Positions 3,978 through 22,668 of a stretch of DNA of 64,000 bases are shown here, in pieces. Every line of letters begins with the position of its first letter. Position 1 is the stretch's first letter. The position numbers and the translations under genes are program-made. Location of the stretch: assembly GCA_958299035.1 (NCBI GenBank), contig CATQJL010000001.1:26143521-26207520 (forward strand), in the 5' to 3' direction. This stretch comes from Cylicocyclus nassatus (Eukaryota > Nematoda > Chromadorea > Rhabditida > Strongylidae). The notes under the pieces are model-generated. The model was not told where the DNA came from, made no database searches, and worked only from the letters and a program-made list of their open reading frames with translations.

Positions 3978-4364
3978 TTGAAGTCTCGAGGCCATGTGTA
4001 TTGTTGCGTTAGTTGCGCACGATAGACAAATCTAACAAACATATTCAATGGCATAACAGATTTTTGCCTCCTCTCTCAACAAAAAACATCTGAGTAAATC
4101 GTAAACGTAACAATTCATCAACAAGTAATAGCGTGCACAGATCATAAAGTATCATATGTATATAAACAAAGCCTACTTACATGATTGTATAGCTGATATG
4201 CATTTGTTCCGTCATCATTTCGTTATGAGAGCCTTGATCTTCTTGAGAAAACCCACATATTGCGAGTTGTAGTGCGTAGCCTAAGCAACCAGAGTTTTGC
4301 AGAACTGGGCATCACATCCGCGCTCTTAGGTAGCGGACAAAAAGTAAGTTGTGGAGATCCTAAA
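3978..4364. other. Intergenic, no gene seen
   Basis: AT-rich spacer between the phosphatase 3' end and the split MITE. No repeat with clear ends and no exon recognised. Confidence 0.5.
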
Positions 4365-4366
4365 TA

Positions 4367-5037
4367 TTAGGCTGTCCGGAAATTAATGCCCGTTTTGAAT
4401 TTCAACCGCAACAAGTCACACACTTTTCATTCCTGAATAGCTTTCAAGGTACCATTTGATAGAGCAAAGCAAGCTCTACAAAATGGCTGTCTTGTTTTAG
4501 CAACAGCTCTGATCCACCTAGAGTTTCGAGCCAAAAACTAAAAAGATTCAACTGCCCGAAAAATCAAGAAAAATCATAATTCAGTTTGTAAGACTTCTAC
4601 AAAAATTCTAACTTGCTCACGTAAACACTATCCACATAAGACACATATGTACGCTATTGCCGTATTTTTTTCTCTGTTAAAAATCGAAAAAACGAAAATG
4701 TTCATACTTTTGCAAAAGTGATGCTGTGTCATCCCCACATAAGTAGATGTATACTACAAATCTGCAGAAGTAAAAACGTAAATTTTCAGCTTTTTACAAG
4801 CTTTTGTTCTCGAGAAATTTGAATTTTAGTTTGGACCACCTGACTAATGAAAGCTATATTCGATATTTCTCGAGAACTAAAGCTTGTAGAGAGCTGAAAA
4901 TTCACGTTTGTACTTCTACAGATTTGTAGTACACATCTATTTACGTGGGGACGACACAGCATCAATTTTGCAAAAGCATGAGAATTTTTGTTTTTTCGAT
5001 TTCTAATAGAGGAAAAAATACGGCAATAGCGTACATA
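4367..5037. mobile_element. Palindromic mariner-type MITE, left piece (split by giant element)
   Basis: Begins TTAGGCTGTCCGGAAATTAATG after a TA. Its matching end CATTAATTTCCGGACAACCTAA is at 22208. The two pieces join to a palindrome of about 945 bp once the 16.9-kb insertion is removed. It contains the hairpin AGAGCAAAGCAAGCTCT at 4461-4477, shared with other MITEs here. TIR type matches mariner ends. Confidence 0.9.
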
Positions 5038-5039
5038 TA

Positions 5040-7302
5040 CAGGGCTCCTCAATTACAGAGTCGCTTACACCAGCAGCTCCCGCCCCGCACGGCCGCATCG
5101 CCTAAACCCCGCGCGGCGTCTGCGATGCGTGCCCGGGCATTTTGCCAGGCCTCGATCGATGGCGCCGGCGCTGGCATCGTAATTTCTCGGCCGGTTCGTC
5201 TCATTTCTTTGTTCTTTCGCTCACTTTGTCCTCATTCAGCCTCGTAATAATTTTGCGATGTCATATCATGCCGATCTGCGTCACAATTCTTTTGTAGCTG
5301 AGGTTTTAGGGTTTTGGCTTGGCAGCAGGGTCAAGCGTGTTGATGCGATCCTGGACCCTCATTTACGACCCCCCCCCATGAAGGTACCCATCCGTACGAC
5401 CCCCCCCCCCCTCCCCTCCCCCCCCCCTCCCCTTCCCCCATCTACCCCCCTTACCTCTCCTGCCCACATTTCTCGCGGTAACCTGCATAAACTAATGTCA
5501 ATCTCAAAAAACACCTGCGTGAGAACTTCAGCGGAATTTCGGAGGCAGAATTTCTAGGCCAATGGGTGCGCCCAGCATCTCTAGCACATATACACATCTT
5601 AAATAATGTTTGAGATTCTGCAAGTTTACTTTTGAATTTTCAGGCACACTTCAGGCCAGCAAATTTGATTCCTTATGCGATACAAATTTTTACACGGAGA
5701 ACAAAATGACATTCTTGAACTACAAAAGATGTTTTCGACTAAGAAGCTCAGTTCTTACCTCTTCCACAGTTTTTCCTGCGAAAAAAACCGCTTTAGCGCC
5801 GTCTAGAACGACGTCAAAAGCATGCATGAGTACGGTAGTTTGAAAATCCGTAACTAAGGCCAGGAAAAGACTGAGAGGCTGCAAAGAACAGGTTCAGTAG
5901 CATAGTGCCCAGACTATTCATAGAAAAAGTTTCAGCCCTTGAGGAGCAGTGAGCTCGAAAAAATTTAGATCAGTCTCTCGCAAATTTAGATGCGATCCTA
6001 GAAAGCAAAAACTGGGATTTTTGAGCCTAAAATTTTGTAACTTACCAGAGAAGTTATAAAACAGCCTGAAATTCTTACGATAAAAACTAGAGGGATGGCC
6101 TCGTATTACAGCAAGTTTGCAGCTAACAAGCTTCAATAGCTCCGGAGAAACTTAGATCAGGCGCAGATACGACCCCCCTTTTCTCATTTTTTGCTAGCAT
6201 ACATAAAATCATAAGAAAATCCGCAGTTTATAAAATAACACCAGATTTCTCACAGCAGTAGTAGGGCTTATCTAAAGCACACGTAAATTGTAAGGGCCGC
6301 ATAAATGGCATTACAAAAAGATTTACGAATTATTGATTGTCATCGTTGATCTACATGTGCGCTTTTGTCGAGTGTGCGAGTCTTCAGTGAGCCTTCGGAA
6401 GCAGGATGTCTACACCGATCAGTACGTCCAACATCTTTATCACACATACATGCCTTTGGCAGCATTTGAGCTTCTGAAAATGTTTATTTTTTTGATTTTA
6501 GTCATGCCAGCAGGGTTCGATTCCCGTTTGAGACAATATTTTGCGGGAGAGATAGCGATTCCCATAAAAAAAGAACTAACAATAAGTCATAATCTTTCAA
6601 AAGTGCAGCAAATGAAGCGAATTCTTACGCTTGCGAATGTTTTCAAATTATTGTTCACTCGTTTTTATCTGATACATTAGTACACGGCACGGCATTCCAT
6701 GAATTTATTGTTAAGAACATGTAATATTTACTTGCCATTTGATTTGCTTTCAATCGTACGGTTTTTTATCCAAACTACCCCCTCTTACGACCCCCTCTCC
6801 TGACCGTAGGCCCCCTTCACGACCCCCCGTTGCGACAGTCGCATCACACGCTTGACCCTGCTTGGCAGTGATGGGATTTTCTCGTTCAATTTATCTCGCT
6901 TCTTCGTTTTTTCGCGCTGTGGTGCCTCAGAAAGTTTTATCGTAGTTCAGTGATGAAGAAATATGTCGCAATCCAGCGCAATAGTTTTTTTCTAGACCTG
7001 TGGTATTTGTGGGATTCCTAGCTCCTGTTTTTCTTGCCATGCACATGTAGGAGCTTGTGTTTGTCTGCTGTGTGTGAGTTATCTGGTAGGTTTGTGATTC
7101 TCATCTTTTTTTCATGATGTTATCTCTTCATATAGGATCCATGCCGCGACGTTCTTTGGTCGATGACCCCTCATTGTTTCTGTCAGCCTTGTTTTGGTTC
7201 AAGCGCACAGGTATGTTCAGGATCCTTGCTCGAAATTACGCTGATGTTGTACGCCGTTTTGCTTTAGGTGCCCATTTTTCTTCCATTGTGACATCTATGA
7301 AG
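5040..7302. repeat. Left terminal inverted repeat of giant element
   Basis: Runs from the element end to 7302, where similarity to the right arm stops abruptly. It includes a complete hAT-like insertion and the 5' exons of an inward-facing transcription unit. The few differences from the right arm that I noticed are mostly near the inner end, which could reflect gene conversion. Confidence 0.9.
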
Positions 7303-7320
7303 AAATGTGACTCAGTGTAG
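5258..7320 (+). CDS. Putative spliced cargo gene in left TIR, exons tentative
   Basis: Not recognised. An ATG at 5258 opens a frame (MSYHADLRHNSF...) that is interrupted at 5326 by a hAT-like insertion; skipping the insertion and one target copy leaves the frame open for about 50 codons. Further exons by splice motif are 7136-7210 (reads SMPRRSLVDDPSLF...) and 7268-7320 (reads AHFSSIVTSMK..., stop). The splice at 7210/7268 is phase 1 and in frame. The first part has no proven splice to exon 7136. The same exons occur in the right TIR on the opposite strand, where they continue into different downstream exons. A poly(A) signal at 8167-8172 may end longer transcripts. No known domain was seen; gene status needs transcript support. 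Confidence 0.4.
5326..6860. mobile_element. Non-autonomous hAT-like element in left TIR
   Basis: Ends CAGGGTCAAGCGTG and CACGCTTGACCCTG are inverted repeats and the flanks are an exact 8-bp duplication, CTTGGCAG (5318-5325 and 6861-6868). An 8-bp target duplication with CAGGG ends is diagnostic of the hAT superfamily. Poly-C tracts lie near both ends. No hAT transposase was recognised. The same insertion is present in the right TIR at 20114-21645. Confidence 0.85.
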
Positions 7321-8270
7321 TGAGATTGCATATATGTTGCACAGTCACCTCCCAAGTTCCGATTTTGGATTAAAAAAGGTATCTAGTAGGTATGTTAGAT
7401 TATCTAGTAGGTATGCTCATAAGACAGCTGAAGTTCTCTTTCCTTTCATGACAATAAACAGAGTAGCTCCCCGGAACATTACCGCTCATGATCACTTGCC
7501 CTATAGAATTGTACATGTTTATTGATTTTTACATCGAAATAGTGCTTTTGAAGTTGTCAGTTTTCTTGATTCTAATATGAAAAGGATTTTGTTCTCAGGT
7601 GAGTCAGTGATATATCGTTACAAACTCAAACTTCTCTCTAACTCCGCCTTTGTTGAAAGTGACGATATTTGTGCGTGTTTGCTTACTTCAACGTCCCTTG
7701 TAGAAGATGCATCGCGGATGTGATGACTTTTCCCTAAGGTAATGAGTACTTTATCTGCCTACTTTTTATTTTGTCTGTGATGCCCTAACAGAAATACTTC
7801 GTTTAGAGCTTATGTGGAGCTTAATCGATTTCCGAAAAAGGCATTCTCTAATCAAAGAAATGTGAATGGCGGATGCTTTAGTTCACAATGTACACTTTTG
7901 TTGTCAGCAACCTGAGCAGGTTGAAATTAGTGCATCTTTATCCCTATTGTTCAAGTAATGTCCTCATTTCCGGTTTCCTTTCTATAATTTTGATCACCTT
8001 TCTCATTCAGTCATCTTGCGAAGTATGGTTTATGTCGACATCGTTCAAAAGGACAGGAATGTTATAGTCAGCGTTCTAATACTCACCTGCTGCGTAATAC
8101 GCCGAACTGTGGCATCCTACCTACACCGTCACGTCTCATGCGCTGAATCTAGTGTGTAGGTAGTTAAATAAAGTTTTTTCTTATAATTTTTGATTTTTCT
8201 TTGTTTTTTTCTGTTTTTTTCCTTGATAAGTCACTTTATTACAAAAGAGATATCAAAAGTTTATTCTTCA
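7321..8270 (+). other. Interior left of transposase; candidate exons and 3' hairpin
   Basis: Unique sequence inside the giant element. An open frame runs 7307-7525 without recognisable domain, and several GT/AG motifs (for example a donor after AAG near 7738) suggest further exons of the left cargo unit. A 10-bp perfect hairpin stem CTACCTACAC / GTGTAGGTAG (8117-8126 and 8154-8163) precedes AATAAA at 8167-8172, a likely 3' end facing the transposase gene. Confidence 0.4.
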
Positions 8271-10110
8271 TCAGAGAGAGACCATGGCGTTTTCTGACTC
8301 ATCTAAGCTCTCGCAGGAAGACTGGTCAGAGGAAGAAGTTTCGTCATCTTCCTCTAGGTCCAGTGTCTGCTTTTCTCTAGCCGCAGTTTCTTGTCTCTGC
8401 GCATCGCGAAACCACGCGCTTGCACGATTTGCCGATACATCCGCCAACCAACTGACCGTTCTCTCCCTTACCTAAATTCTGCGTATCCATTCTTGTTTTG
8501 GGGTTGGGTACAAAGGTGATTGGGGTTGGGTGAGCTTTAGTTGGTTATGTACCACACCAATATTGTCGGTTATTTTCCCACACTTGTTCAGGAATCCCTT
8601 CAGCTGACCCCAGCAAAGCTCGATGGGATTGAAAAAGCAATGAAAAGGGGGAAGTCTTATTAGATTTACTCCCAATTCATTGCATATTCTCTCCGTAGCG
8701 TAGCTACGGAGTGCCGAATATCCGCCTGCTTCTTCGACATAACTGTTCAGCTGAATCGCGTCGTTTAGGTTCTTTTTCATTAAACAAAAGCGATTACCTC
8801 CATCAGCAGAATTTGTTTTGTAGCTGTTCTCTCCACAGCTATTCCTTTTTTCTCGAGGAATTCCCTTATTTGCGCCTTGGTTGATGAAGATGTAGGCACT
8901 TTCTCCTCCTGTCGCGTATGGTACGGCGCGTTGTCCATAACCAGACAAACGCGCCTGCGATTTGCTCGCGCTTTCATGTCGATCGCGAATCAATCGCGAT
9001 CGACAACAATCGCGCAGCCAAGATTCGAAGAGCGTATGGTTCATTTCCCTGTGGTAATCGCCATCATCAACCATTCCGCTCACAAATACCCTCGTGCACT
9101 CGGGTATGATGCCGTCCTCCGCCAGTGCACCAATCACTATCGCCCTTCTTCCTTTATTCTTGCTGGCCGTCTTCCCATAGGAGTACCTAGCAAAGGTGGA
9201 TCGAGGGGCAAACCTGGGGATGTTGTTGTCGTTCCAGCCTTTGGGTTTGGTCATCCCGCTGAACACCCAGGTTTCGTCCATGTACACTAGGTACTCCCCC
9301 CTTTCTCTTGCTGAGGCGATCGCTCTCAAGTAGTGATCCCTTTTCGCGACCAAATCAGATCTTTCAAAAATGAATTTTTGCCCTGGATTCTTCTTGAAGG
9401 AGAATCCCAGCCCCCGCACGAGCCTATGCAGGGTAGCTCGTGACAAAGTGAAGTCTTCATGGGCCGATGACAGCTCTTCGTGTAAATCTGCAATAGTCAC
9501 GTTTTCCTCGTTTCGTAGTCTTCCATGAATTGCTTGCTTCACTATATCTCCCCACTGCGGACCGTATCTTGTAACCGTGGCCATCGTCATTTTCTTCCTG
9601 TTGTAAACACTCTTCTGTCGCCTTGGTTCTTCTTGCAGTTCGTAGCCCATCCGATTTAAGGTCCTCCGTGAAATGCCTAGGGCAAGTGCGGTTATCTCAG
9701 TGGGTTGCTGGAAGACGACTCTTGCGCAAGTTTCTTTCAGCCTGTTCTTCAATTCTTTGGCGAAGTCGAGGGCGCGTCTTATTAGTTCTTTCCCGTCACG
9801 TCCGTATCTCGCTCCCTTTTTTCGCGAGCCTTTGGGCCATCTGCTCATCTTCATTGAATCAATGACTTCTTTACAGATCTGACTACAGTCGCACTCTTTT
9901 ACGTTTTCGTAGAGTCCCTGAAATGGAAATGATTCTCACTAAGGTAATGAAGGTAATCAGGCACAACATAAGCCTTATCTAGCAAGAATATATATTTGGC
10001 GGTATGGTTCTTAATATGTGATCTACAAGCAGTGTGCTTTGTATCATTGCATTTCGTCAGCAGAAAGTTGCATCGCTGAGGAATCTTCACAGTTCCCAGA
10101 GAATGCAACT
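8271..10110 (-). pseudogene. Tc1/mariner-superfamily (DDE_3-like) transposase, spliced, with frame lesions
   Basis: Expected to cut and integrate DNA at TA sites. Exons: 10110-9968 (Cys/His-rich: QRCNFLLTKC, then HTACRSHIKNH), a 50-nt GT-AG intron joining in frame, then the main exon from 9917. The main exon has an N-terminal helix-turn-helix-like part (about 50-150 codons after the ATG at 9854), first catalytic Asp in VYMDETWV (D193 from that ATG, codon at 9278), second Asp in VMDNAPYHT (codon at 8935) and Glu in FFNPIELCW (codon at 8621). The second Asp lies in another frame: one shift falls between about 9011 and 8977 and a compensating one between about 8830 and 8730. A TAG at 8474-8472 is followed in the same frame by about 66 more codons ending at 8271 with an acidic Ser-rich tail. 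AATAAA follows on the minus strand (8265-8260). Asp2 to Glu spacing is about 104 codons, far wider than the usual 34-41. Lesions may be real decay or sequence error. The start upstream of 10110 was not resolved. Confidence 0.85.
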
Positions 10111-10782
10111 CTGTACCGACTCTGCGGAATGCGAGTAATTACTTACCATCTTGCAGTGCTGTAGTGCCGAAATTAGAATATAGAGAGGGGCGGAGAAGCT
10201 AGACAAAATAGAGTTTGCTTATAGTTCCGAATACAGCAGTAATAGATTGAATAGCCAGACCGAATATAAGTATGGGTAAAGTTTCGAATAATTCATAGTA
10301 ATAGAAGACTATGAATAAAGCAGTGGGTAAGTGAATAGTAGATTGGGAGATGGGTTGAGCTCATTGACTGGCGATTATGGTGCATTGGTCGCAACGTTCT
10401 TGCAAGCGAATAATTTCTACATCCACTTGAGATAGTCAAAGGATGAGCAAAGATGGTCGGCCTTAGCATGAATGGTCCACCCATTCACTTGAGAACATCC
10501 AATTAGGCTCTTCAGACGCAATCAAGGAAAGATGCATTGTAGAACCGATGCTGCCTTCACATCAGACTCACCATATCAGGGTTATAAGATACTTGCAGTG
10601 CTTCCGTGAATTCTAGAGCCGGAATGGTTGGTTCCTCCATCACTATGTCTTCAGGAAAACCCATCGACTGTTCGCGCTACAACATAAACTGTCAAAAGCA
10701 AAGAGTTTTAGTCAAAGAGGCCGTTTATCAGCTGAAGCGAATCACTAAATATATCAGTCAGATAAATTCCTCATATCTTATA
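10111..10782. other. Upstream of transposase; promoter or first exon not resolved
   Basis: Probable 5' region of the minus-strand transposase gene. A short minus-strand exon ending near 10147 with a GTAAGT donor (ACTACAGCACTGCAAGATG) could join the exon at 10110, but the intron would be only about 36 nt. Nothing else recognised. Confidence 0.35.
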
Positions 10783-11302
10783 ATCACTGGGGGCAGGCGG
10801 CCATGCTATTTATAAGCAGGCGGGAACCGCAAAAAAAGTTCGCTGATTTCTTGCGGTCCGCCTGCAGATATCTGGAAGAATTTTTGCGAAATTTTAGACG
10901 AATGCTCGGAGAACAATTGCTGCTTTTTCAAAGATTAGTTGCGGCGCAGTGGCCGCATTCTCGCGGACTTTCCGCAAGAATATCAAAATTTTTGGGCACC
11001 GCACGGTCCTTTTGAAGGACCGCGCAGCCCGTAGGTATTTTTAATTGAACCATCGATGACACCTTTGTAATGTAGAGTGCTACCCTTGCTCAGTGTACGA
11101 GCGAAACTGCGTAAAAAGAGTTCAAGCGTCTGCTGAAAGTTTGGCCCGCGCTCGCTGAAAGAAAATATTTGACGAGCGCTTGCTATTGCTGCCCGCTGGC
11201 AGAAGACGGAGGTACCGCTAGCTGAAGGTTTGGCCACTCCCCAAAATTCTGCTGACCGTTTGCAGAAAAGCGCGAGTTCGCAGACCGCCTGCCCCCGGTG
11301 AT
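10783..11302. mobile_element. TA-flanked MITE, ATCACTGGGGGCAGGCGG ends
   Basis: Inverted ends ATCACTGGGGGCAGGCGG and CCGCCTGCCCCCGGTGAT, with TA on both sides, bound 520 bp nested inside the giant element. GC-rich near the ends. No coding capacity. Confidence 0.75.
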
Positions 11303-12464
11303 TATCTGAGTCTGCTAAGAACGGATAGAAATAAGTCGACGGTCCAGTTCAAATCTCCATAATCTCATCTTTCGAACAGTATATAGCTTGTTAGGGCATT
11401 GAGCTTCCTAGCTTCAAAACATGCTTGCTCCGGTGACCCATGAAATACAATACAATGGGTGAGCGGGTAGAGCAAGCACCCCACAATCTATATAGCTATA
11501 TAGCTATATAGAATATGGGGTTAAAAAACTCTATATAGCCATTTAAAAGCTTAGAAAACAGGGATTCAACGTAAACCATCGGCTTTCTTTTAGTCCTACT
11601 CTACCGAGAGATATTCTGCATTTTATCTAAAATTATGTCCATTATTAGCAGCAAATTTTTGCCCAACGAACACATAACTACACCTGATTATCTTTTTAGA
11701 TTACAGAGCAATTCTTCGTCAATAAATTTAGACCCTCGTAACTTTCATCTTCATTGCGATAAGAGAGCAGAAAGTTAGCATGCTAGATCAATTGACATTT
11801 TAAATAAAATCGCTTATACCCGGCAAATACTAAAAAAAATCAACGGTTATTCGATTCTCTAGGGCATCAGCTTTCAGATGGTATGTAGCTTGTTAGGGCA
11901 TTTCTTTCAGGGCTCGCTTATCCCTTCACACTACAAGGATGGGAGTAGCGGATACCTCCTTCACCTGGAGAGGGCCTGGCTTCCTTCGCACCTATGCAAA
12001 AGAGGATTAGAAGCACCAACGATGTAACAATTTACAATCCATTATTGATATAAAGAATACTGTTTATTCATGACTATGTTAAGGGGAGCGACTCGAAAAT
12101 TCTATATTCTGCACTCCAAATTGGCGGCGCAAGAAGGTAAGCTGCAGGAACCTTCGTAAAATTATGTAAAATTTTCAGAAATTGTTAACTCAACAAGCTC
12201 TTGGTCACAACATTTGACGGTACCATTCGGCCTCAAACAAGAATTCAAGGAACAGCATTCTGTGTAAGAAAAGATTTTCCAGGAATTTCCAGGATAAACC
12301 ATCTTACCATTTTTTTATACTTCGAGACATGTGTAAACTATGCAAACTTCTTCCATTTTCTCAAAAGTAATTCGATGGCCAGCATAGTAGAACAGAAAAA
12401 ATTTACTGTGACAGTTTTGCTTTTAAAGGATCTACTGTTATTTCAGCCTTTTAAGCGCAGTGTA
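11303..12464. other. Giant-element interior, no gene seen
   Basis: Contains a CTATATAG microsatellite at about 11491-11514 flanked by CCCCACA and TGGGG, giving a hairpin. No coding exon recognised. Confidence 0.4.
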
Positions 12465-13315
12465 TTAGGTCGTTCCATGAGTTCGTAGCGTTTTTATAAA
12501 CCAACAAAATCATCAATTTAAGTAAAAATCACTCAAAATTATAATTCTGGTTGAAGCGCATAACCTTTTGGCACATTCTTGTCAGCTTCTCAACCTCAAT
12601 TTTTCAAACGGCAGCGCGCCGGGTCCCAAGAAAGTCATCTAACCAGCGCTCAAGTTGCTTACTGAAATCGAGACATGCACAATTCATGAGGTTTGCCAGA
12701 GAGCGGAGCAAATGATAATTTGGTAGAGCGAGGTTTGGAGAGTATTTTGGGTACTGAAGTACCTTCCACTCGAGTCGTGCAGGAGAGTTTTGACGACGTT
12801 TGCCGTATGAGGCCATGTTTCGTCATGCAGAAAAACTCACTGAATTTGTCTTTTATGCTTTTTCTGCGTAGGACCTGGTTTAAACCGTGCATTTGGATTG
12901 CTTATGGCGTGGTTGACCGTCGCCTACTTGTCCAGCAATATTCAGTGCAGGACGTCCTGCCCGTACCCCGAAAATGCTCAGCTCCTGCTCTTTTGTACCA
13001 ATCCAATTCTTTTTTTGTCTTATATTGATGAACAAACGCCACGTTACATAATCGACACAAAAATCTGTGCAAAAACGCTTCTTTTCATAACGAAAAAGGC
13101 GCAAATGCCGAAATTGCTCCTTTTTGCCTTTCAAAATTTCCATTTTTGGAAGCTGCGAGATCCGAGTAAATCAGCTTTCCACCGAAATCAGTAGATGTAT
13201 TTCAAAAAGCACAATCAGCCCTTCCAAACGATATATGCATTCCGCCGCAAATCAACTGCTCCTCAAAGATATGAGTAGGAAAATAAAAACGCTACGAACT
13301 TATGGAACAACCTAA
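12465..13315 (-). pseudogene. Mariner transposon relic with broken transposase
   Basis: TIRs TTAGGTCGTTCCATGAGTTC and its near-perfect inverted match end at 13315, both flanked by TA. On the minus strand the C-terminal half of a mariner transposase can be read in scattered frames: a DYVTWRLF block in place of the usual DEKW (first catalytic Asp), a degraded MTKHGLIRQ block near the second Asp, then LEWKVLQYPKYSPNLALPNY with the third acidic residue missing (YSPNLA, normally YSPDLA). At 851 bp it lacks the N-terminal half of a full mariner (about 1.3 kb). It is dead and nested in the giant element. Confidence 0.85.
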
Positions 13316-15691
13316 TAGTTATGATACGTTGAATTTTTGAGCTTTTCAAAACCAATAGTACAACTCAAGACCATATACAAGAATTTTTTGCTTTTTAAAA
13401 CCAGTGTTAGTACGGTAACCAGAGCATTCTGACATGACTTCAAAATCAAAACCGGATTTTAATGGAAGATATCACAAATCAGGCTGAAGTCTCGAGCGCA
13501 TACCATCGATACATAGAGTGCACTCTGGTGACTTTCACTCTAAGCGATACATGAGAACACGACCTACCAGAAAACCAACAGAAGTCATCCAGGGCAAAGC
13601 CTCTTTATTATAAATAAATCGGAATGAATGCGATTGACAAGTATAGTGATTAATATCTCAATAACATCCCAGCAAAATCAAAAAACTGCATTTTATAGTC
13701 TTTCTTGTGCTATAAGCGACGTTTTGAAAAAATTTCCATAAAATTCGGGACAACACTTGTCAGTTAACCTCCTTTGAGTTTGCGATTGAGTTGCAAAGGC
13801 TCATGAAAGCTGTTGAAGTTCATCAAAAAGAAAAAGATCGCGAGAGTCGTATTTCGTTAAGGAATGATTTCTAACGCCGGCAACGTTGCATTGCTCTTAG
13901 TCGTGTCGTGACGATCAGGATGGTACATAATGTTGCATTGTTTCGTTAAGAGCCCGCGTAGATCTAACCACAGTCAAATGCCCCGTCGGCGCTGGTCTTT
14001 CTCCTCTGCTTGTCTGCGTCTCCACGCTTTGCGCGCTACCTCGCTACCCCAAACGCGGTGCACGAGGCACTTGGCTCTGGTACATTTTCTCCGTCTTTCG
14101 GAACCCAATCTTAGCAAACTGCTTATCCTATTCAAGCTTTTGAGCTCTATTTTCACGCCAACAACGTCACAACTCCATATTTTGATTTGAGCGACAAATC
14201 TGGCAAAAATCGTGCTTTCGAAAATCACTCGTTCTTTTTTAGTTCAGTTTTTTTTTTCACGTTTACTCGTGCGTTTCACAGATCTTGCTTCAGTCTAGAA
14301 CCCAGACAACGTCACAAGGCTTACTTCTTTAATTGTGGTGAAACATTTGATAAGCTCTTTAAAGGGTTAATAAGCACCCATTTCTTCCACGCTTAGGGGC
14401 ATCTCGCTCAAATTATGAGCAGAATAAAACTGGTCACCAAAAACGGAAACTAATAGAGAGAGGTAAAAATTTGAAGGAGGCATCAAGAACTGATTCGCTT
14501 TGACAAGCAGAATAGAAGTAGAAACAGCTTAGTAACAACTTAGTAGAAACAAAACAACTTACAACTTAGTAGAAACAAAACTTTGCGTTTTCGTCATTTT
14601 AAGACTTTACTTGTTTATCTTGTTTTTGATGATTACCACATCCAGAACATGTTGTTTTCAAAACACACAGAGAATAAATTAGCTCTTTCTTGTCCCCACT
14701 CTCCCCACCGCATTGTGGATAGCCTGGTCCTAGTTTGAAAACCTGCGATTCGAAATGCTGCCAAATGAAAGATTACACTCATTGCAGCGTTTTTATCCGT
14801 TTCCAAGGGTTTCTTTTGTTTTTGCTAATCATTTGCATCTTTTTACCATTTCCGACTTTTTATAAACAAATCTTCACTTTTCATGGGGAGAAGATATGCA
14901 GACCACCTTCATTTTTTTATGGGGAGCAAATATGCAAACATCCTTCACAACAGAGGCCCGGCCCTATCTCTAGACTATCGAAGGTGTGCTCGAGGGCCAT
15001 TTCTCTTACCTTTCACTTTAAATACAGTGCGTTAAAGCTATGCGTGCACGACAAATTGACTTTTGTACTTTTTCGTCATTTCCTCCTATTTCTTCCACAA
15101 TCCCTTAGTTCTTTCTATCAATTAATACACGTATTGCACATTTACTAACTGCCAGTGAGATTCAAATAAATGTTGAGATATGACTGCGTTGCTACGCACC
15201 CAGTAGATTTTCTGATTCAGAAAGCCATACGAGGCAATTGTTGTCAGACATCATCAGCAAATTACATTTCGTTTAAGTGTTCTGCTATCGTGTGCTCCTG
15301 AATGTTTTTTGAACATGAAGCGTACTGAAGGAAATATTCTCAAGCCGTTTGTAACTTATTGTGTGTGCCTGCACATTATGCCCGGCAACAGATGATTCCG
15401 AACTAGTGGTTTTTCAGTAACACTTTCTCAGTGGAACGAACTGAGAAATGTGTACCCTAACTAATACATACCATTCAAATCAAAAAAGAGATTGAGAAGG
15501 AGAATTCACTGAAATTGAGCAGCTTCTAATTTAGTTTAGCCGTCAAGTAGCACGCATGGTGTGAGATTCGTTTATTGAAAACGATACATACTTACAAAGT
15601 TAGTTATGAATATTGCTAGAATGGCACTCATTCAATTTTTGACTTCAAAAAAATGTCTCAAATTACTTTGTTTATCTGCATCCAGACTTAA
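13316..15691. other. Giant-element interior, no gene seen
   Basis: No recognisable gene. The open frames at 13930-14190 (+) and 13974-14228 (-) overlap antisense and show no domain. A frame at 14735-15148 (+) is rich in Phe/Leu and Cys but has no splice or homology support. Confidence 0.4.
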
Positions 15692-16108
15692 AGGCAGTGT
15701 CTCACCAAAATTTAGTTGCCGAGATTTTTGCATTTTGCAAGCCTGTCGGACCCTATCTAGCACTGTATGGGCTTAAAAACGCACGAAGTTCCCAAAAACC
15801 CCGTTTTCTGGAGGCCCCGTGGAAGCAACATGGACGAGTTGTACCTTCCAACTTCAGCCTCAGCTACAGTAGCAGCAACAGAGGGGAGGTGGATGCCAAG
15901 TGGAGGGACATGTTCAAACGCGTAAGGGGGGAGACCGAAGGAGTCGTCCGCGCGTACGAACTTGCTCTCCGCGTACCACTTTGAGCGATTTTTTCTCAGC
16001 GTGGAGGGGGTAAAATTGAGTGGGACTTGTTGCAATGGCCTACTTAGAGGTCCCTATAATAGAATATGTGAAGATCCGCGCGACCTCAACTTTATTGAGA
16101 CACTGCCT
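15692..16108. mobile_element. TTAA-type MITE, AGGCAGTGTC ends
   Basis: AGGCAGTGTC and GACACTGCCT are inverted ends flanked on both sides by TTAA. TTAA duplication is typical of piggyBac and Kolobok elements; the AGGC terminus fits Kolobok better. 417 bp, no coding. Confidence 0.8.
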
Positions 16109-16219
16109 TTAAGTGTAGACATGTACACTAAAACTGCTTCAGATATATATATATATGAAGTATGGATTACGTAAAGCTTGTAGACATCATAGATCTCATG
16201 TAAGTTTCTTCAGGTTTAA

Positions 16220-16655
16220 AGGCAGCGTCCCGGCAAAAAGTGCCGGGTTTTTGTGGCGATGTTAAATTGGACCCCTACCTAAGCGATGACTGAAATTCGG
16301 AGCGAAAAAGGTCTACCAAGCCTGAAATTGCTTGGAAAGTAGCCCGGATCTTGCGATAGGCTCGAATGGTCCGCACAGCGATTTCGATGCAAGGCCAGAG
16401 CACGCATAGCAGCGCAGGGTCCGCAACGACCCTGCGCTCATAACTGGCGCCCTGCCCTTAACTCTGCGTCTCTACCTTGAATGCATCTCGTACTCGCCCA
16501 AGCCTACCGTAGATCCGGGCCACTTTTAGGTCAAGTTTCGACCTTGGCGGACCCCCTTTTACGCACAGTTATTTTTTCAGTCATCGCTTACGTAGGAGCT
16601 TTACTTCAGCATCGCTACAGAAACCCGACACCTCCACTTTGGCGGGACGCTGCCT
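16220..16655. mobile_element. TTAA-type MITE, AGGCAGCGTCCCGGC ends
   Basis: AGGCAGCGTCCCGGC at the left is matched by GGCGGGACGCTGCCT at the right. TTAA precedes the left end; the right target copy is degraded. Same family as 15692-16108 and 57426-57857. Confidence 0.75.
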
Positions 16656-17990
16656 CCAAAGGAGTATCCCGGCAGATTTTGTACATCCACCTTTCTGCAT
16701 GTTTTAGGCCTTTTCGACACGTAGAACCCGAATTTGAACATAAAGGGGGGTGAAAACGATTTTGGAGCCTTTACCCCAAAAAAGCAGCTTGGAAGAGATA
16801 TTCAATAGAAAGTTGGGAGGGCCCGACAAGAAGACCCTGTAGCCGCTAATTTATGCTTTTGGTAGCGCACACAATGCGGGAGCGGTCTGAAATCCCCGCC
16901 GAACAGACAAGCAAAGCCGTTCGAGCGCGCCGTTTGGGGTGCGCCATGGATGTAATTTCCGGGATGAACACAGTCACCTCAAGTTTCTTTTTGTTAGCAA
17001 AAGCTACTGCAAGTAGCACAACCCCTTACGGTTTCATCGCGAAGTCTCCAGGCCGTTGATTTGATATCGACGTTGTTACTGCCGGCTGATGGAAACTGAG
17101 CAGAACTGGTATCCTTAAGCATGAAATTATAAAATGCTATACTGAAAAAAATGCTTTCGAGAAAATAGGTCGAAAGTGAGCAAAAAGTGGACTCACTTCA
17201 CGGGTGCTTAGGTAGGCTGCGGTGCTTCTGATATCCGGGATGAATTGGATTGGCTGGGAAGGTTGCATCTGTTTATACTATGCTGAGAAGGTCTTACCGG
17301 ATTAGGTCGAAGGCGCGCCGCGGTTGCCCTTATGTCGGGTGCATGGATGTTCTGAAAATAGAAAATTTAAAAAAATAAAAATTAAAAAAAAATTAAAAAT
17401 TAAAAAATAAAATAAAAAATTTAAAAAAATTAAAAAAACAAAATTAAAAAAATATGTCAAAAAATATCAAAAAATAAAAGTAAAATTGATAAAAAAATAT
17501 CAAAAACAAAAACAAAAAAATCGGATATCTAAATAGAAACTTCGAACTCGGATACCTCAAGCGAAACTTGCACCGTATCTTGGGGGCTACTCTGGAATTA
17601 GACAGTTTGATATAGAATTTCAAATTATAAGAATTTTTCAAGCGTTGCATTCTGCTGCCTTTCGTGAACTATTCGTACGGGAAACTGAAACGAAAATACT
17701 AGGTGATAAGTTTGATTTACTAAAAATACCTAACGGCGAACTCACAAGATTATCGTTAGGGTTAACGTAATTCTTTTTCACTGGGTACTGAAAAAAACGC
17801 TCTGAGCAAGCCACTTCGATAGGACAATCAACTCACCATTATTGAAAGTTGGCTGCTGAATAGCGATTGCCTATAAATATGAATGTTGAGGAAATATGTT
17901 AACAACAAAGCAGATGTTTCAGAAGTCGGTAAACAAACGCATCTTATACTTGCCGCTGAGAACGAACGTTTCTGAGCTTAGCACGACTAC
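16656..17990. other. Giant-element interior, A-rich tract, no gene seen
   Basis: From about 17357 to 17520 the plus strand is almost only A with single T residues (AAAATTAAAAATTAAA type). No gene recognised in the rest. Confidence 0.5.
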
Positions 17991-17993
17991 ACT

Positions 17994-18153
17994 ATGGCTG
18001 ATGAAGAAGCTCTATTGTTATCTATCACGAGTCATCCTCTTTTCAGTTTGCCGTCTTCTGGCCAAACGTGGTTCGAAGTTGAACCGAGCGTTGCCTGATA
18101 TGTTTTCACCATCATATGGTCTTGTCTAATCTTCTCGCGTGCGTTCTATGGTG
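17994..18153 (+). other. Candidate short exon
   Basis: An ATG at 17994 in favourable context opens 34 codons (MADEEALLLSITSHPL...) to a TGA; after that stop the frame is open again up to a GTGAGT donor near 18154. Could be a broken first exon. No domain recognised. Confidence 0.25.
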
Positions 18154-18916
18154 AGTCGTTTGCTTTTTTCTTGATTTTCCTATGTTGATCTTTAATCAAA
18201 AATGCGAGTATCATTGATTTTATTATCTGTGTGCGGACTAGTAGTTCTCACACTGAAGCGTCAAGAATGGTTTTTTCTTTGTAAACCTCAAATCGCTCTG
18301 TTCAGCTGCAACGTGAGAGCTAGTAACTAACTATATTTGTTTTGTTCTGCCTACGATAATATGTCGTCTAATATCTTCTTAAGGTGAGTGTCTTCAATGG
18401 TCTTGACTGTGATTACCAAGTGGCCTTATCCTTCCTGGGGCAGCAGCAGTTGTTATCAGAAAGCAGCAAGAGAACAGTCTGGTCCTAAGGACTCTCGAGA
18501 ACAGAAGATTGAGACTGATTACAGCTTCGCTTAAGGTTGGTTTTTTATGTTTTTCATTTTTCTACTATGTGCTCTTAATATCTTTTACAACTAGGCGGGA
18601 AATATTTTGATGAAGTTACGTGATCGAAGTTCAACTTCGATCCAGCATGACTTTTTTTGTTACTGCAGGTCACACAATAATCAACTTGTTCAGATGCAAG
18701 GTTGTTGACAAGCAGTGGACTAAATCGAATGCAAATGAGTTGCAAAATTAAGATGTGGCAGATCTGCGACCACATGCACGAGGCAGGAAATTCTTTGGAA
18801 AAAATTGTCCAATTTTGATTGTTGTTCGTATTTGCTGAAATATGCAATAAATCTCGATGTTTATTTTGACACACAAACAGCTCGATGATAGTTTATTACA
18901 AGGAAAGTGTGACAAA

Positions 18917-19838
18917 TTTATTATCAAGTCTTGAATATTCTTCACTTAGCGCCGTCAATTCCTCGCGTAGGCATCACGCCATGTCAATCTAGCAAACTTG
19001 GTGGGAGAGGATTGAAGAGATGCAGAGGATTTATGCTGCAATCATAAGGTATAACGGGATTCATGACGTTAAGAGGAAGACACTTACGAAAGAAATGTAT
19101 TATCCCACAGATAGACGTTGTGATGGACCTTGAGATGGCGGAGATTCAATAGTAAACTGCGCTTCCGGGCTAAAAATGAACCCATTAGGGCAAAGACAAG
19201 CACGTGCGAAAAGAATATACCATATTAACAAACTCACCAAAATGGGTAATAACTTTCGTTTCAACTGAATGAGATCGTAGATGAAACATTTGAGAAGAGA
19301 GATGGGCACCTAAAGCGAAAGGGTGTAAAGAATAAGAACAACCTAGACAAAGGTAAAAATAGAACCCACTTACTTCTCCGATTTGACTAAGCCACAATAG
19401 CAGGTGTCTAAACTTGCAACACGAGACACAGAGCCTTTCGCTGACACCTGCGTTTTGAAACGTTAGCAACTTTGAGGAAGAATCCTAAACGTACCTGTAT
19501 GCGTATATCGAAAACGGCATGCATTGTTAGTTCTGAAGGAACAATAAAAAGCGTTTCGACTAAAGAACGTTGGGTCATGGACCCTATAAAACGAGAACAT
19601 TACGAAAAAAAGATGAGAATCACAAACCTACCAAGTGTTGATAACTCACACACAGCAGACAAACACACAGCCTTCATAGATGACACAATGGAAGAAAAAT
19701 AGGCACCTAAAGCAAAATGGCGTACAACATCAGCGTAATTTCGAGCAAGGATCCTGAACATACCTGTGCGCTTGAACCAAAACGAGGCTGACAGAAACAA
19801 TGAGGGGTCATCGACCAAAGAACGTCGCGGCATGGATC
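18917..19838 (-). CDS. Putative spliced cargo gene on right side, 3' exons
   Basis: Not recognised. Minus-strand exons by splice motif: 19838-19764 and from 19706 (in the TIR, same as the left unit), then 19583-19495, 19447-19374, 19309-19238, 19169-19088 and 19035-18984 (TGA). The last three join in one frame (AHLSSQMFHLRSH..., RKRSLLLNLRHLKV..., INPLHLFNPLPPSLLD). AATAAA on the minus strand at 18922-18917 fits a 3' end. Exon 19583-19495 with its upstream intron and the exon at 19309 repeat the arrangement of the TIR exons, so an exon module was duplicated in tandem. The junction from 19447-19374 to 19309 does not keep frame, so the model is incomplete. No domain or signal peptide seen. Confidence 0.45.
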
Positions 19839-21931
19839 CTATATGAAGAGATAACATCATGAAAAAAAGATGAGAATCACAAACCTACCAGATAACTCAC
19901 ACACAGCAGACAAACACAAGCTCCTACATGTGCATGGCAAGAAAAACAGGAGCTAGGAATCCCACAAATACCACAGGTCTAGAAAAAAACTATTGCGCTG
20001 GATTGCGACATATTTCTTCATCACTGAACTACGATAAAACTTTCTGAGGCACCACAGCGCGAAAAAACGAAGAAGCGAGATAAATTGAACGAGAAAATCC
20101 CATCACTGCCAAGCAGGGTCAAGCGTGTGATGCGACTGTCGCAACGGGGGGTCGTAAAGGGGGCCTACGGTCAGGGGAGGGGGTCGTAAGAGGGGGTAGT
20201 TTGGATAAAAAACCGTACAATTGAAAGCAAATCAAATGGCAAGTAAATATTACATGTTCTTAACAATAAATTCATGGAATGCCGTGCCGTGTACTAATGT
20301 ATCAAATAAAAACGAGTGAACAATAATTTGAAAACATTCGCAAGCGTAAGAATTCGCTTCATTTGCTGCACTTTTGAAAGATTATGACTTATTGTTAGTT
20401 CTTTTTTTATGGGAATCGCTATCTCTCCCGCAAAATATTGTCTCAAACGGGAATCGAACCCTGCTGGCATGACTAAAATCAAAAAAATAAACATTTTCAG
20501 AAGCTCAAATGCTGCCAAAGGCATGTATATGTGATAAAGATGTTGGACGTACCGATCGGTGTAGACATCCTGCTTCCGAAGGCTCACTGAAGACTCGCAC
20601 ACTCGACAAAAGCGCACATGTAGATCAACGATGACAATCAATAATTCGTAAATCTTTTTGTAATGCCATTTATGCGGCCCTTACAATTTACGTGTGCTTT
20701 AGATAAGCCCTACTACTGCTGTGAGAAATCTGGTGTTATTTTATAAACTGCGGATTTTCTTATGATTTTATGTATGCTAGCAAAAAATGAGAAAAGGGGG
20801 GTCGTATCTGCGCCTGATCTAAGTTTCTCCGGAGCTATTGAAGCTTGTTAGCTGCAAACTTGCTGTAATACGAGGCCATCCCTCTAGTTTTTATCGTAAG
20901 AATTTCAGGCTGTTTTATAACTTCTCTGGTAAGTTACAAAATTTTAGGCTCAAAAATCCCAGTTTTTGCTTTCTAGGATCGCATCTAAATTTGCGAGAGA
21001 CTGATCTAAATTTTTTCGAGCTCACTGCTCCTCAAGGGCTGAAACTTTTTCTATGAATAGTCTGGGCACTATGCTACTGAACCTGTTCTTTGCAGCCTCT
21101 CAGTCTTTTCCTGGCCTTAGTTACGGATTTTCAAACTACCGTACTCATGCATGCTTTTGACGTCGTTCTAGACGGCGCTAAAGCGGTTTTTTTCGCAGGA
21201 AAAACTGTGGAAGAGGTAAGAACTGAGCTTCTTAGTCGAAAACATCTTTTGTAGTTCAAGAATGTCATTTTGTTCTCCGTGTAAAAATTTGTATCGCATA
21301 AGGAATCAAATTTGCTGGCCTGAAGTGTGCCTGAAAATTCAAAAGTAAACTTGCAGAATCTCAAACATTATTTAAGATGTGTATATGTGCTAGAGATGCT
21401 GGGCGCACCCATTGGCCTAGAAATTCTGCCTCCGAAATTCCGCTGAAGTTCTCACGCAGGTGTTTTTTGAGATTGACATTAGTTTATGCAGGTTACCGCG
21501 AGAAATGTGGGCAGGAGAGGTAAGGGGGGTAGATGGGGGAAGGGGAGGGGGGGGAGGGGAGGGGGGGGGGTCGTACGGATGGGTACCTTCATGGGGGGGG
21601 GGTCGTAAATGAGGGTCCAGGATCGCATCAACACGCTTGACCCTGCTGCCAAGCCAAAACCCTAAAACCTCAGCTACAAAAGAATTGTGACGCAGATCGG
21701 CATGATATGACATCGCAAAATTATTACGAGGCTGAATGAGGACAAAGTGAGCGAAAGAACAAAGAAATGAGACGAATCGGCCGAGAAATTACGATGCCAG
21801 CGCCGGCGCCATCGATCGAGGCCTGGCAAAATGCCCGGGCACGCATCGCAGACGCCGCGCGGGGTTTAGGCGATGCGGCCGTGCGGGGCGGGAGCTGCTG
21901 GTGTAAGCGACTCTGTAATTGAGGAGCCCTG
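19672..21931. repeat. Right terminal inverted repeat of giant element
   Basis: Inverted copy of 5040-7302. It contains the same hAT insertion and the same inward-facing 5' exons. The inner boundary is sharp at 19672, beyond which the sequence continues into a tandem copy of the exon module. Confidence 0.9.
20114..21645. mobile_element. hAT-like element, copy in right TIR
   Basis: Same ends and same 8-bp duplication (CTGCCAAG here, 20106-20113 and 21646-21653) as the left copy. Identical insertion point in both arms shows that the arms were homogenised or duplicated after the hAT inserted. Confidence 0.85.
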
Positions 21932-21933
21932 TA

Positions 21934-22208
21934 TGTCTTATGTGGATAGTGTTTACGAGCAAGCTAGAATTTTTGTAGAATTCTTACGAACTGAATTATG
22001 ATTTTTCTTGATTTTTCGGGTAGTTGAATCTTTTTAGTTTTTGGCTCGAAATTCGAAGTGGATCAGAGCTGTTGTTAAAGCAGGAGAGCCATCTTGTAGA
22101 GCTTGCTTTGCTCTATCAAATGGTACCTTGAAAGCTATTCAGGAATGAAAAGTGTATGACTTGTTGCGGTTGAAATTCAAAACGGACATTAATTTCCGGA
22201 CAACCTAA
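21934..22208. mobile_element. Palindromic mariner-type MITE, right piece
   Basis: Remainder of the MITE that starts at 4367. It carries AGAGCTTGCTTTGCTCT at 22098-22114 and ends CCGGACAACCTAA followed by TA. Confidence 0.9.
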
Positions 22209-22668
22209 TATCTTCATATTGGTAAAAATCCGAGAGCTTGCTGCTTTAGTGACTGCAAAAAGATCTGTGATCGTCATTGCTATCACATCCACCTCAATGC
22301 AGTTTTACACCGATGATTCTTTTTGAGGTTATCAACTCATATCATTGTTGAAGCTACTTACAGCGTCACTTTGGATACCAGCAAAAAGATGAAGCATGAT
22401 ACGCAGAAAAAATTAATGAAGATCAGAGAAGTTTTCAACGCTGTTTGTTGCAGGGGGCAACCATGGCACAAAAAGCAGTCAAATCGCAAATTTTTCTTCA
22501 GCCAAACATTCTGATAAGATACGAAGTCAGAAAACTATAATACAATGTTCTGGACATCAGCATGTTGCACTAGATTTTGAAAAGCAAACAATTAGACACG
22601 TGAAACGCCAAGTGTAGAGATTTCCTGCTTCACATAAAGCCATAAATTCATTATGTAGAGTCACTTAC
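22209..22668. other. Intergenic, no gene seen
   Basis: No exon or bounded repeat recognised. The expected last exon of the C1QBP-like fragment was looked for on the minus strand and not found. Confidence 0.4.

Follow-up and report, generated by a model that had tools for sequence, protein, structure and literature searches.

A single TA-bounded 16.9-kb transposon copy with a Sailor-like transposase in the nematode Cylicocyclus nassatus, probably enlarged by other DNA

How does a transposon with a mariner-type transposase come to be 16.9 kb long? The question is raised by a locus in Cylicocyclus nassatus, a strongylid nematode that lives in the horse gut (the hosts of Cylicocyclus are horses and donkeys). 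The stretch analysed, 64,000 nucleotides long and hereafter called the window, corresponds to C1:26,143,521-26,207,520 in an assembly of 514.7 Mb and 369 contigs (C1, C112 and so on), and at window positions 5040-21931 an initial annotation, made from the sequence alone, proposed a member of a giant, gene-carrying transposon lineage. We find that 5040-21931 is one TA-bounded unit, a single inserted transposon copy. We further consider it probable (roughly 0.7) that this copy was placed by a Sailor-like transposase of the type DD88E and was enlarged to its present 16.9 kb by DNA from other sources.

Consider first the outer limits of the unit. The terminal sequence CAGGGCTCCTCAATTACAG stands at position 5040 and its reverse complement at 21913-21931, each occurring once in the window, and TA lies immediately outside both inverted ends, as part of TATA on the left and TATG on the right. 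Joining the 676 bases of left flank to the 280 bases of right flank, minus one TA, restores a 954-bp palindromic repeat, and this joined sequence is found uninterrupted at all 40 places scored, out of 4,717 candidate places in the genome (941-968 bp, 87-94% identity, both strands counted). When the left flank alone serves as the query, all 39 other scored copies give paired matches on both strands. Since the flanks collapse to one intact repeat, they point to a single insertion event, in which the element arrived either with its full length or shorter, to grow thereafter. Much of the initial annotation thus holds: the exact inverted ends with TA on each side, the single 16.9-kb insertion, for which the 40 uninterrupted repeats provide paralogous empty sites in the same assembly, and the DDE transposase of the IS630/Tc1/mariner type, which lies on the minus strand at ~8.3-10.7 kb and whose relatives score clearly. 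Its near-identical arms of ~2.26 kb hold as regards likeness, the two being 99.3% identical (14 substitutions and 5 gap columns), but not as regards length, which is inflated by a nested element.

That nested element is non-autonomous and hAT-like, and its insertion point is identical to the base in the two arms, where it is flanked each time by the 8-bp duplication CTTGGCAG (Table 1). Duplications of 8 bp are typical of hAT elements. The family, ~1.5 kb long with CAGGGTCAAGCGTG ends, occurs at 38 other places, 90-98% identical, among 40 scored of 1,480 candidates; in six of these copies that were inspected, the 8-bp duplication is exact in four and matches at 7 of 8 bases in one, the sixth copy being undelimited. 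The two copies in the arms are 99.3% identical to each other, compared with 98.0% to the best copy elsewhere. Because two independent insertions at one base are unlikely, we infer that the insertion passed from one arm to the other by copying.

Do the ends belong to a wider family? The outer 286 bp of the terminal inverted repeat (TIR) match 17 further copies that we extracted, which range from 649 to 1,553 bp; as the scoring covered 40 of 121 candidates, this copy number is a lower bound, and a few weaker partial matches were left unextracted. In eight of the 17, the aligned parts span 498 bp at one end and 355 bp at the opposite one; two copies have 498 and 358 bp, and in the remaining seven the aligned parts stop no more than 38 bases from the 498/355 limits. 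Three of the 17 lack part of one end, and in a fourth one end has diverged. Among the 13 two-ended copies, 12 have TA at both sides, the other having TA and TC, and TATA at both sides is seen in none. The ends of the window copy and of most family copies inspected begin with CA. A pattern search with the 22-nt terminus, allowing up to 3 mismatches, returned 776 matches in the genome, compared with 0 when the terminus was reversed as a control. Beyond chance, these ends are those of a TA-flanked family.

Miniature inverted-repeat transposable elements (MITEs) can arise as internal deletion derivatives of DNA transposons, and the ~850-bp copies are likely deletion derivatives in which 498 bp at one end and 355 bp at the opposite end were kept. 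They resemble ordinary MITE derivatives in having both ends and one common junction, and the short copies here outnumber the single long copy. Many of the roughly 100 places listed of the 776 termini fall in a shorter sub-family of ~86-172 bp with ends TACAGGGCTCCTAAATTGCAGA (for example C1:1691283-1691454). Two family copies at 15.212 and 15.234 Mb of C112 (L015 and L016), both flanked by TA on either side, lie ~21 kb apart with mirrored flanks, which suggests one insertion copied by inverted duplication.

The transposase gene of the window copy is probably frame-broken. Its first-aspartate and glutamate motifs lie in one frame and its second-aspartate motif in another; because the middle catalytic motif thus sits in a different frame, the long open reading frame (ORF) alone gives a weak match to the Pfam family DDE_3 (E 0.003, under the family cut-off). 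Comparison with a relative on C316 reveals a frame-changing insertion between the first two catalytic motifs. An intron was considered as an explanation and rejected: the candidate splice between these motifs did not keep the frame, and we therefore treat the change as a frame break. A public C. nassatus protein, P0001, matches the transposase ORF with 100% identity along 99% of the query. Its model (8472-10664) apparently reads through both the predicted intron and the frame break as coding and is likely flawed.

What kind of transposase would the gene have encoded? A relative from the same genome, P0002, is 54% identical and has the three catalytic motifs in a single predicted protein. In a tree of 33 relatives, built without a named Sailor or Tc1 reference, the window protein joins P0002 (support 100/97) and then P0003 (100/99). 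The predicted fold of P0002 (mean pLDDT 76.7) matches the catalytic domains of Mos1, SETMAR and Sleeping Beauty, and a profile of 31 relatives, searched against the PDB, finds Sleeping Beauty (E 2.5e-5). Note that the spacing between the second aspartate and the glutamate has to be taken from relatives, the second motif of the window copy being in the other frame. A pattern recognised all three motifs in 29 of 47 proteins (2 were misread; 18 lacked a motif), and the spacing is 88 residues in all but one of 12 strongylid proteins, the exception having 98, compared with 80-89 in 15 proteins of other sources. In P0002, residues 411-450 of this long spacer are predicted with high confidence to form a helix-loop-helix. 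The spacer is weakly Ish1/HeH-like: of 31 members, 9 match Ish1 with E values of 0.5 or lower, the best being 0.00076 (the two matches inspected are under the cut-off). The Sailor description reports no domain found in the Sailor insertions (PMC8533490).

With a mariner-fold DDE transposase, a TA target duplication and terminal inverted repeats, the element falls within IS630-Tc1-mariner in the broad sense. It shares the TA target and the catalytic fold with classic Tc1/mariner elements (Mos1, SETMAR, Sleeping Beauty), where, however, the spacing is 34-41 (PMC8533490, as are the Sailor values that follow), as against 88 in most relatives of the window protein. Sailor (DD82E), the nearest described group, offers a closer comparison: its elements measure 1.38-6.98 kb, with TIRs of up to 1,362 bp and a spacer of 78-111, and nematodes are among its hosts, nematode Sailor being represented by intact copies of ~2.75 kb with 24-bp TIRs in one species. 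The long spacer, which at 88 in most relatives lies within 78-111, the motifs near LDET, MDNA and HC..NPIEL, and the inverted ends all recall Sailor. The targets differ, being TA here and mostly TATA in Sailor (PMC8533490), as do the ends, which start with CA rather than the usual GT or CC, and the length, 16.9 kb as against at most 6.98 kb. Judged by its sequence, the enzyme belongs to IS630-Tc1-mariner as a Sailor-like transposase of the DD88E type and is not a classic Tc1/mariner enzyme, the 88 having been measured on relatives.

Having placed enzyme and ends, we wondered whether the two belong together. On its cargo side, the right interior starts with sequence matching what lies upstream in the transposase gene region on C316; on its arm side (18633-19671) it matches, at ~71% identity, sequence that adjoins an end of this kind in the relic found at C1:44.379-44.381 Mb. 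Gene side and end side of the right interior each occur in a relative, and this supports one native interior, so that a single element would carry both enzyme and ends. The relic itself was rejected as a second giant, its right end having no left end in the adjoining 12 kb. Within the element, a second TA-flanked pair of 20-nt inverted ends was sought between 7303-8472 and 16945-19671, and none exceeded the shuffle level: the best pair matches at 16 of 20 bases in a T-rich stretch, compared with shuffle maxima of 14-17. A separate nested element carrying the transposase was accordingly not found. A more distant relative, whose transposase piece is 49% identical, lies at C223:42,157,276-42,162,262 (L055, L069, L070) in a 5.0-kb element with TA-CAGTCGCTTC ends and inverted repeats of ~825 bp that are 96.5% identical to each other; long arms therefore recur in the group.

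We now turn to the largest component of the element, the ~6.2 kb of cargo, which makes up over a third of its length. Over 5,014 aligned columns it is 97.6% identical to its donor region on another chromosome, C112, and 89% and 96% over the remainder. Four similar long regions lie at 73.95-74.19 Mb of C112 (39 of 10,441 candidates scored), and these copies stay homologous to each other past both cargo borders, so that the borders are breakpoints of a piece in the transposon. Neither a target duplication nor a terminal repeat was seen at either border, and the cargo was rejected as a mobile element on that ground. When the cargo is left out, the sequences on its two sides line up with the C316 relative in an unbroken order, the junction being ~28 bases shorter; the transposase match and the match that follows it are then 1,016 bp apart, compared with 1,024 bp in the relative. 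The start codon of the relative falls at the junction, which places the cargo right where the transposase gene begins.

The cargo does not look like genes. In two segments (aligned from four and three sequences, respectively) we observed no 3-base periodicity in substitutions and few indels in threes, and 14 ORFs besides the transposase contain no Pfam domain above cut-off, the matches below cut-off being DUF7515 (in the cargo, E 0.011) and RL. The gene cargo of the initial annotation is for these reasons not supported, and neither is its giant lineage. None of the 17 extracted copies of the family is of giant size, all measuring 649-1,553 bp, and genome searches, in which very common words were skipped, detected no second copy of the interior beyond the one-ended relic at ~71%. 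With no second interior found, what we have is one large patchwork copy. No Rfam family reached its gathering score between 4300 and 22300.

Two further repeats lie within the cargo (Table 1). On the minus strand of the high-copy 855-bp repeat, which the closest donor copy shares, an ORF looks by eye like the C-terminus of a mariner transposase, without a Pfam match. The 417-bp insertion between TTAA copies is absent from the donor copies that align there, and it likely arrived after copying, as a MITE of piggyBac type. As for timing, cargo and donor differ by ~1.6% substitutions (two aligned segments) and the two arms by 14 substitutions in 2.26 kb. Both events are fairly young, and, given equal rates, the lower divergence of the arms means that their last equalisation came later than the copying of the cargo.

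Table 1. Coordinates of the features discussed, as window positions
Feature	Positions	Strand	Remarks
Target repeat, left part	4364-5039		Palindromic, high-copy, MITE-like; last two bases are the left TA
Left TIR	5040-7302	+	2,263 bp; ~720 bp minus nested insertion and one copy of the 8-bp duplication
Nested non-autonomous hAT-like element, left arm	5326-6860		1,535 bp; duplication at 5318-5325 and 6861-6868
Left interior	7303-10718		Most of the transposase gene; otherwise single copy except 63-86% matches in the transposase region
Main transposase coding stretch	8472-9917	-	MDET 9270-9281; MDNA 8924-8941, other frame; NPIE 8610-8630
Predicted intron	8751-8797	-	47-nt GT-AG stretch; same place as an intron-like stretch in relatives
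Upstream transposase coding exon	10572-10664	-	As annotated in protein P0001
Cargo	10719-16944		Near-copy (~98% identity along most of the stretch) of C112:74,004,939-74,010,878 and of the segmental duplicates of that region
High-copy repeat in cargo	12463-13317		855 bp; also in closest donor copy
Insertion between two TTAA copies	15692-16108		417 bp; absent in four donor copies aligning there
Right interior	16945-19671		Start aligns with the transposase gene of a relative, on its 5' side; 18633-19671 aligns with the C1:44.379 Mb relic
Right TIR	19672-21931	-	2,260 bp
Nested hAT-like element, right arm	20114-21645		1,532 bp; same element at same base
Target repeat, right part	21932-22211		First two bases are the right TA

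How might such a patchwork have been assembled? Subtracting the cargo and the arm insertions leaves ~7.6 kb. Imagine an element of that length, with inverted repeats of ~720 bp and an intron-containing DDE transposase gene, that excised itself and integrated at a TA within a palindromic MITE. A hAT-like element would have entered one arm, and recombination or repair between the arms would have copied the insertion to the other, leaving arms that are now 99.3% alike. Where the transposase gene starts, a double-strand break, for example a gap left after excision, might then have been repaired by copying ~5.9 kb from C112, which would have left no target duplication and would have cut the gene off from its start. 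The TTAA element would have entered the cargo later, and the transposase frame would have been broken; with its frame broken, the copy is predicted to be unable to move itself. The growth could have preceded or followed the last jump. Post-excision gap repair is a known source of altered interiors in DNA transposons, and here it would account for the cargo and the matched arms alike.

A number of observations weigh against this scenario. Parts of the cargo, each shorter than 600 bp, match loci outside the C112 cluster, on C223 (69-76%) and at C1:44.383 Mb (75-78%), and some of the cargo is therefore dispersed repeat. The ~28 bases missing at the cargo site are judged only against a distant relative. 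Repair of a break is argued from absences, of a duplication and of terminal repeats, and the true donor may be an unsampled copy. One of the 13 two-ended family copies, as noted, has TA and TC rather than TA twice. The link between enzyme and ends rests on one element: none of 19 transposase loci (L040-L058) has a matching pair of ends, in a search that covered mostly ~1.5 kb on each side of the match, with two loci extended, the closest being a one-sided 21-nt stretch with 5 mismatches at L041, and the related locus at C223:42.16 Mb has other TA-flanked ends. Finally, an error of assembly could have joined two partial elements, given that inverted arms of 2.26 kb are difficult for short reads. 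Flanks that collapse to an intact repeat with a single TA, together with an interior order that agrees with an independent relative, make such an error very unlikely.

The missing end pairs and the differing ends on C223 are also what we would expect if the transposase gene were an unrelated nested insertion and the outer ends belonged to a non-autonomous element moved by another transposase. We regard this as unlikely, because the inner inverted ends do not exceed shuffle level, no other transposase domain is present in the 14 other ORFs scanned, and both the gene side and the end side of the right interior are found in relatives. The cargo, for its part, might be a mobile element that inserted into the transposon; several similar copies on C112 and the shorter, 69-78% stretches on C223 and C1 would suit this. 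Yet its borders bear none of the marks of such an insertion, donor homology runs past both, and the four long copies seen, with 39 of 10,441 candidates scored, lie at 73.95-74.19 Mb of one chromosome, so that we think this highly improbable. A different matter is whether all 16.9 kb moved together with the cargo in place, which would make this a truly giant IS630-Tc1-mariner transposon with chromosomal DNA on board. Precise borders with TA on both sides, a clean empty site and near-identical arms would all fit, as would the lower divergence of the arms, which, if rates are equal, were equalised with the cargo already in place. Conversion in place can equalise arms too, however; a second copy with the junctions between element and cargo was not found, and, with the transposase gene interrupted at its start and apparently frame-broken, a jump at this size would need an enzyme from elsewhere. 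Movement of the whole is thus possible but doubtful, and we favour a Sailor-like element that was enlarged by other DNA.

Uptake of host DNA by a long-armed nematode transposon has a precedent in Turmoil-1 of C. elegans, a member of the Harbinger superfamily known from one complete copy of 5,024 bp with 760-bp inverted repeats (PMC2572040). Both are nematode DNA transposons with long arms that took up chromosomal pieces; Turmoil-1 carries small gene pieces of 205 and 131 bp in its arms, whereas the window element holds 6.2 kb of apparently non-coding DNA in its interior. Like Pack-type (transduplicating) transposons, it encloses a copy of host DNA whose donor is still present, but without a captured gene piece, the two segments tested showing no coding signal. 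Among titles and the opening parts of abstracts, we found no report of a giant, cargo-carrying or DD82E mariner-type element in a nematode. Within that scope, the size, the amount of captured DNA and the existence of a long-armed DD88E group in strongylids with TA targets appear to be new.

The idea of a giant cargo-carrying lineage is tempered by the fact that the long copy stands alone among the finds in the assembly and that its transposase gene is apparently broken. What the locus offers is a single well-bounded case from an animal in which several steps of growth can be read from the target, the empty site, the donor and a nested element at the same base of both arms, and it widens the range of sizes observed in the mariner group. 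Together with its 5.0-kb cousin, it suggests that the long-spacer transposases of strongylids go with inverted repeats of hundreds of bases, compared with 24 bp in nematode Sailor. More tentatively, an element of 16.9 kb, more than twice the longest published Sailor, may have moved whole with 6 kb of DNA copied from another chromosome during excision repair, its arms serving as templates for each other's repair. If this were true, long arms would preserve their mutual likeness and allow a TA-targeting transposon to gain length by taking in patches of chromosomal DNA.

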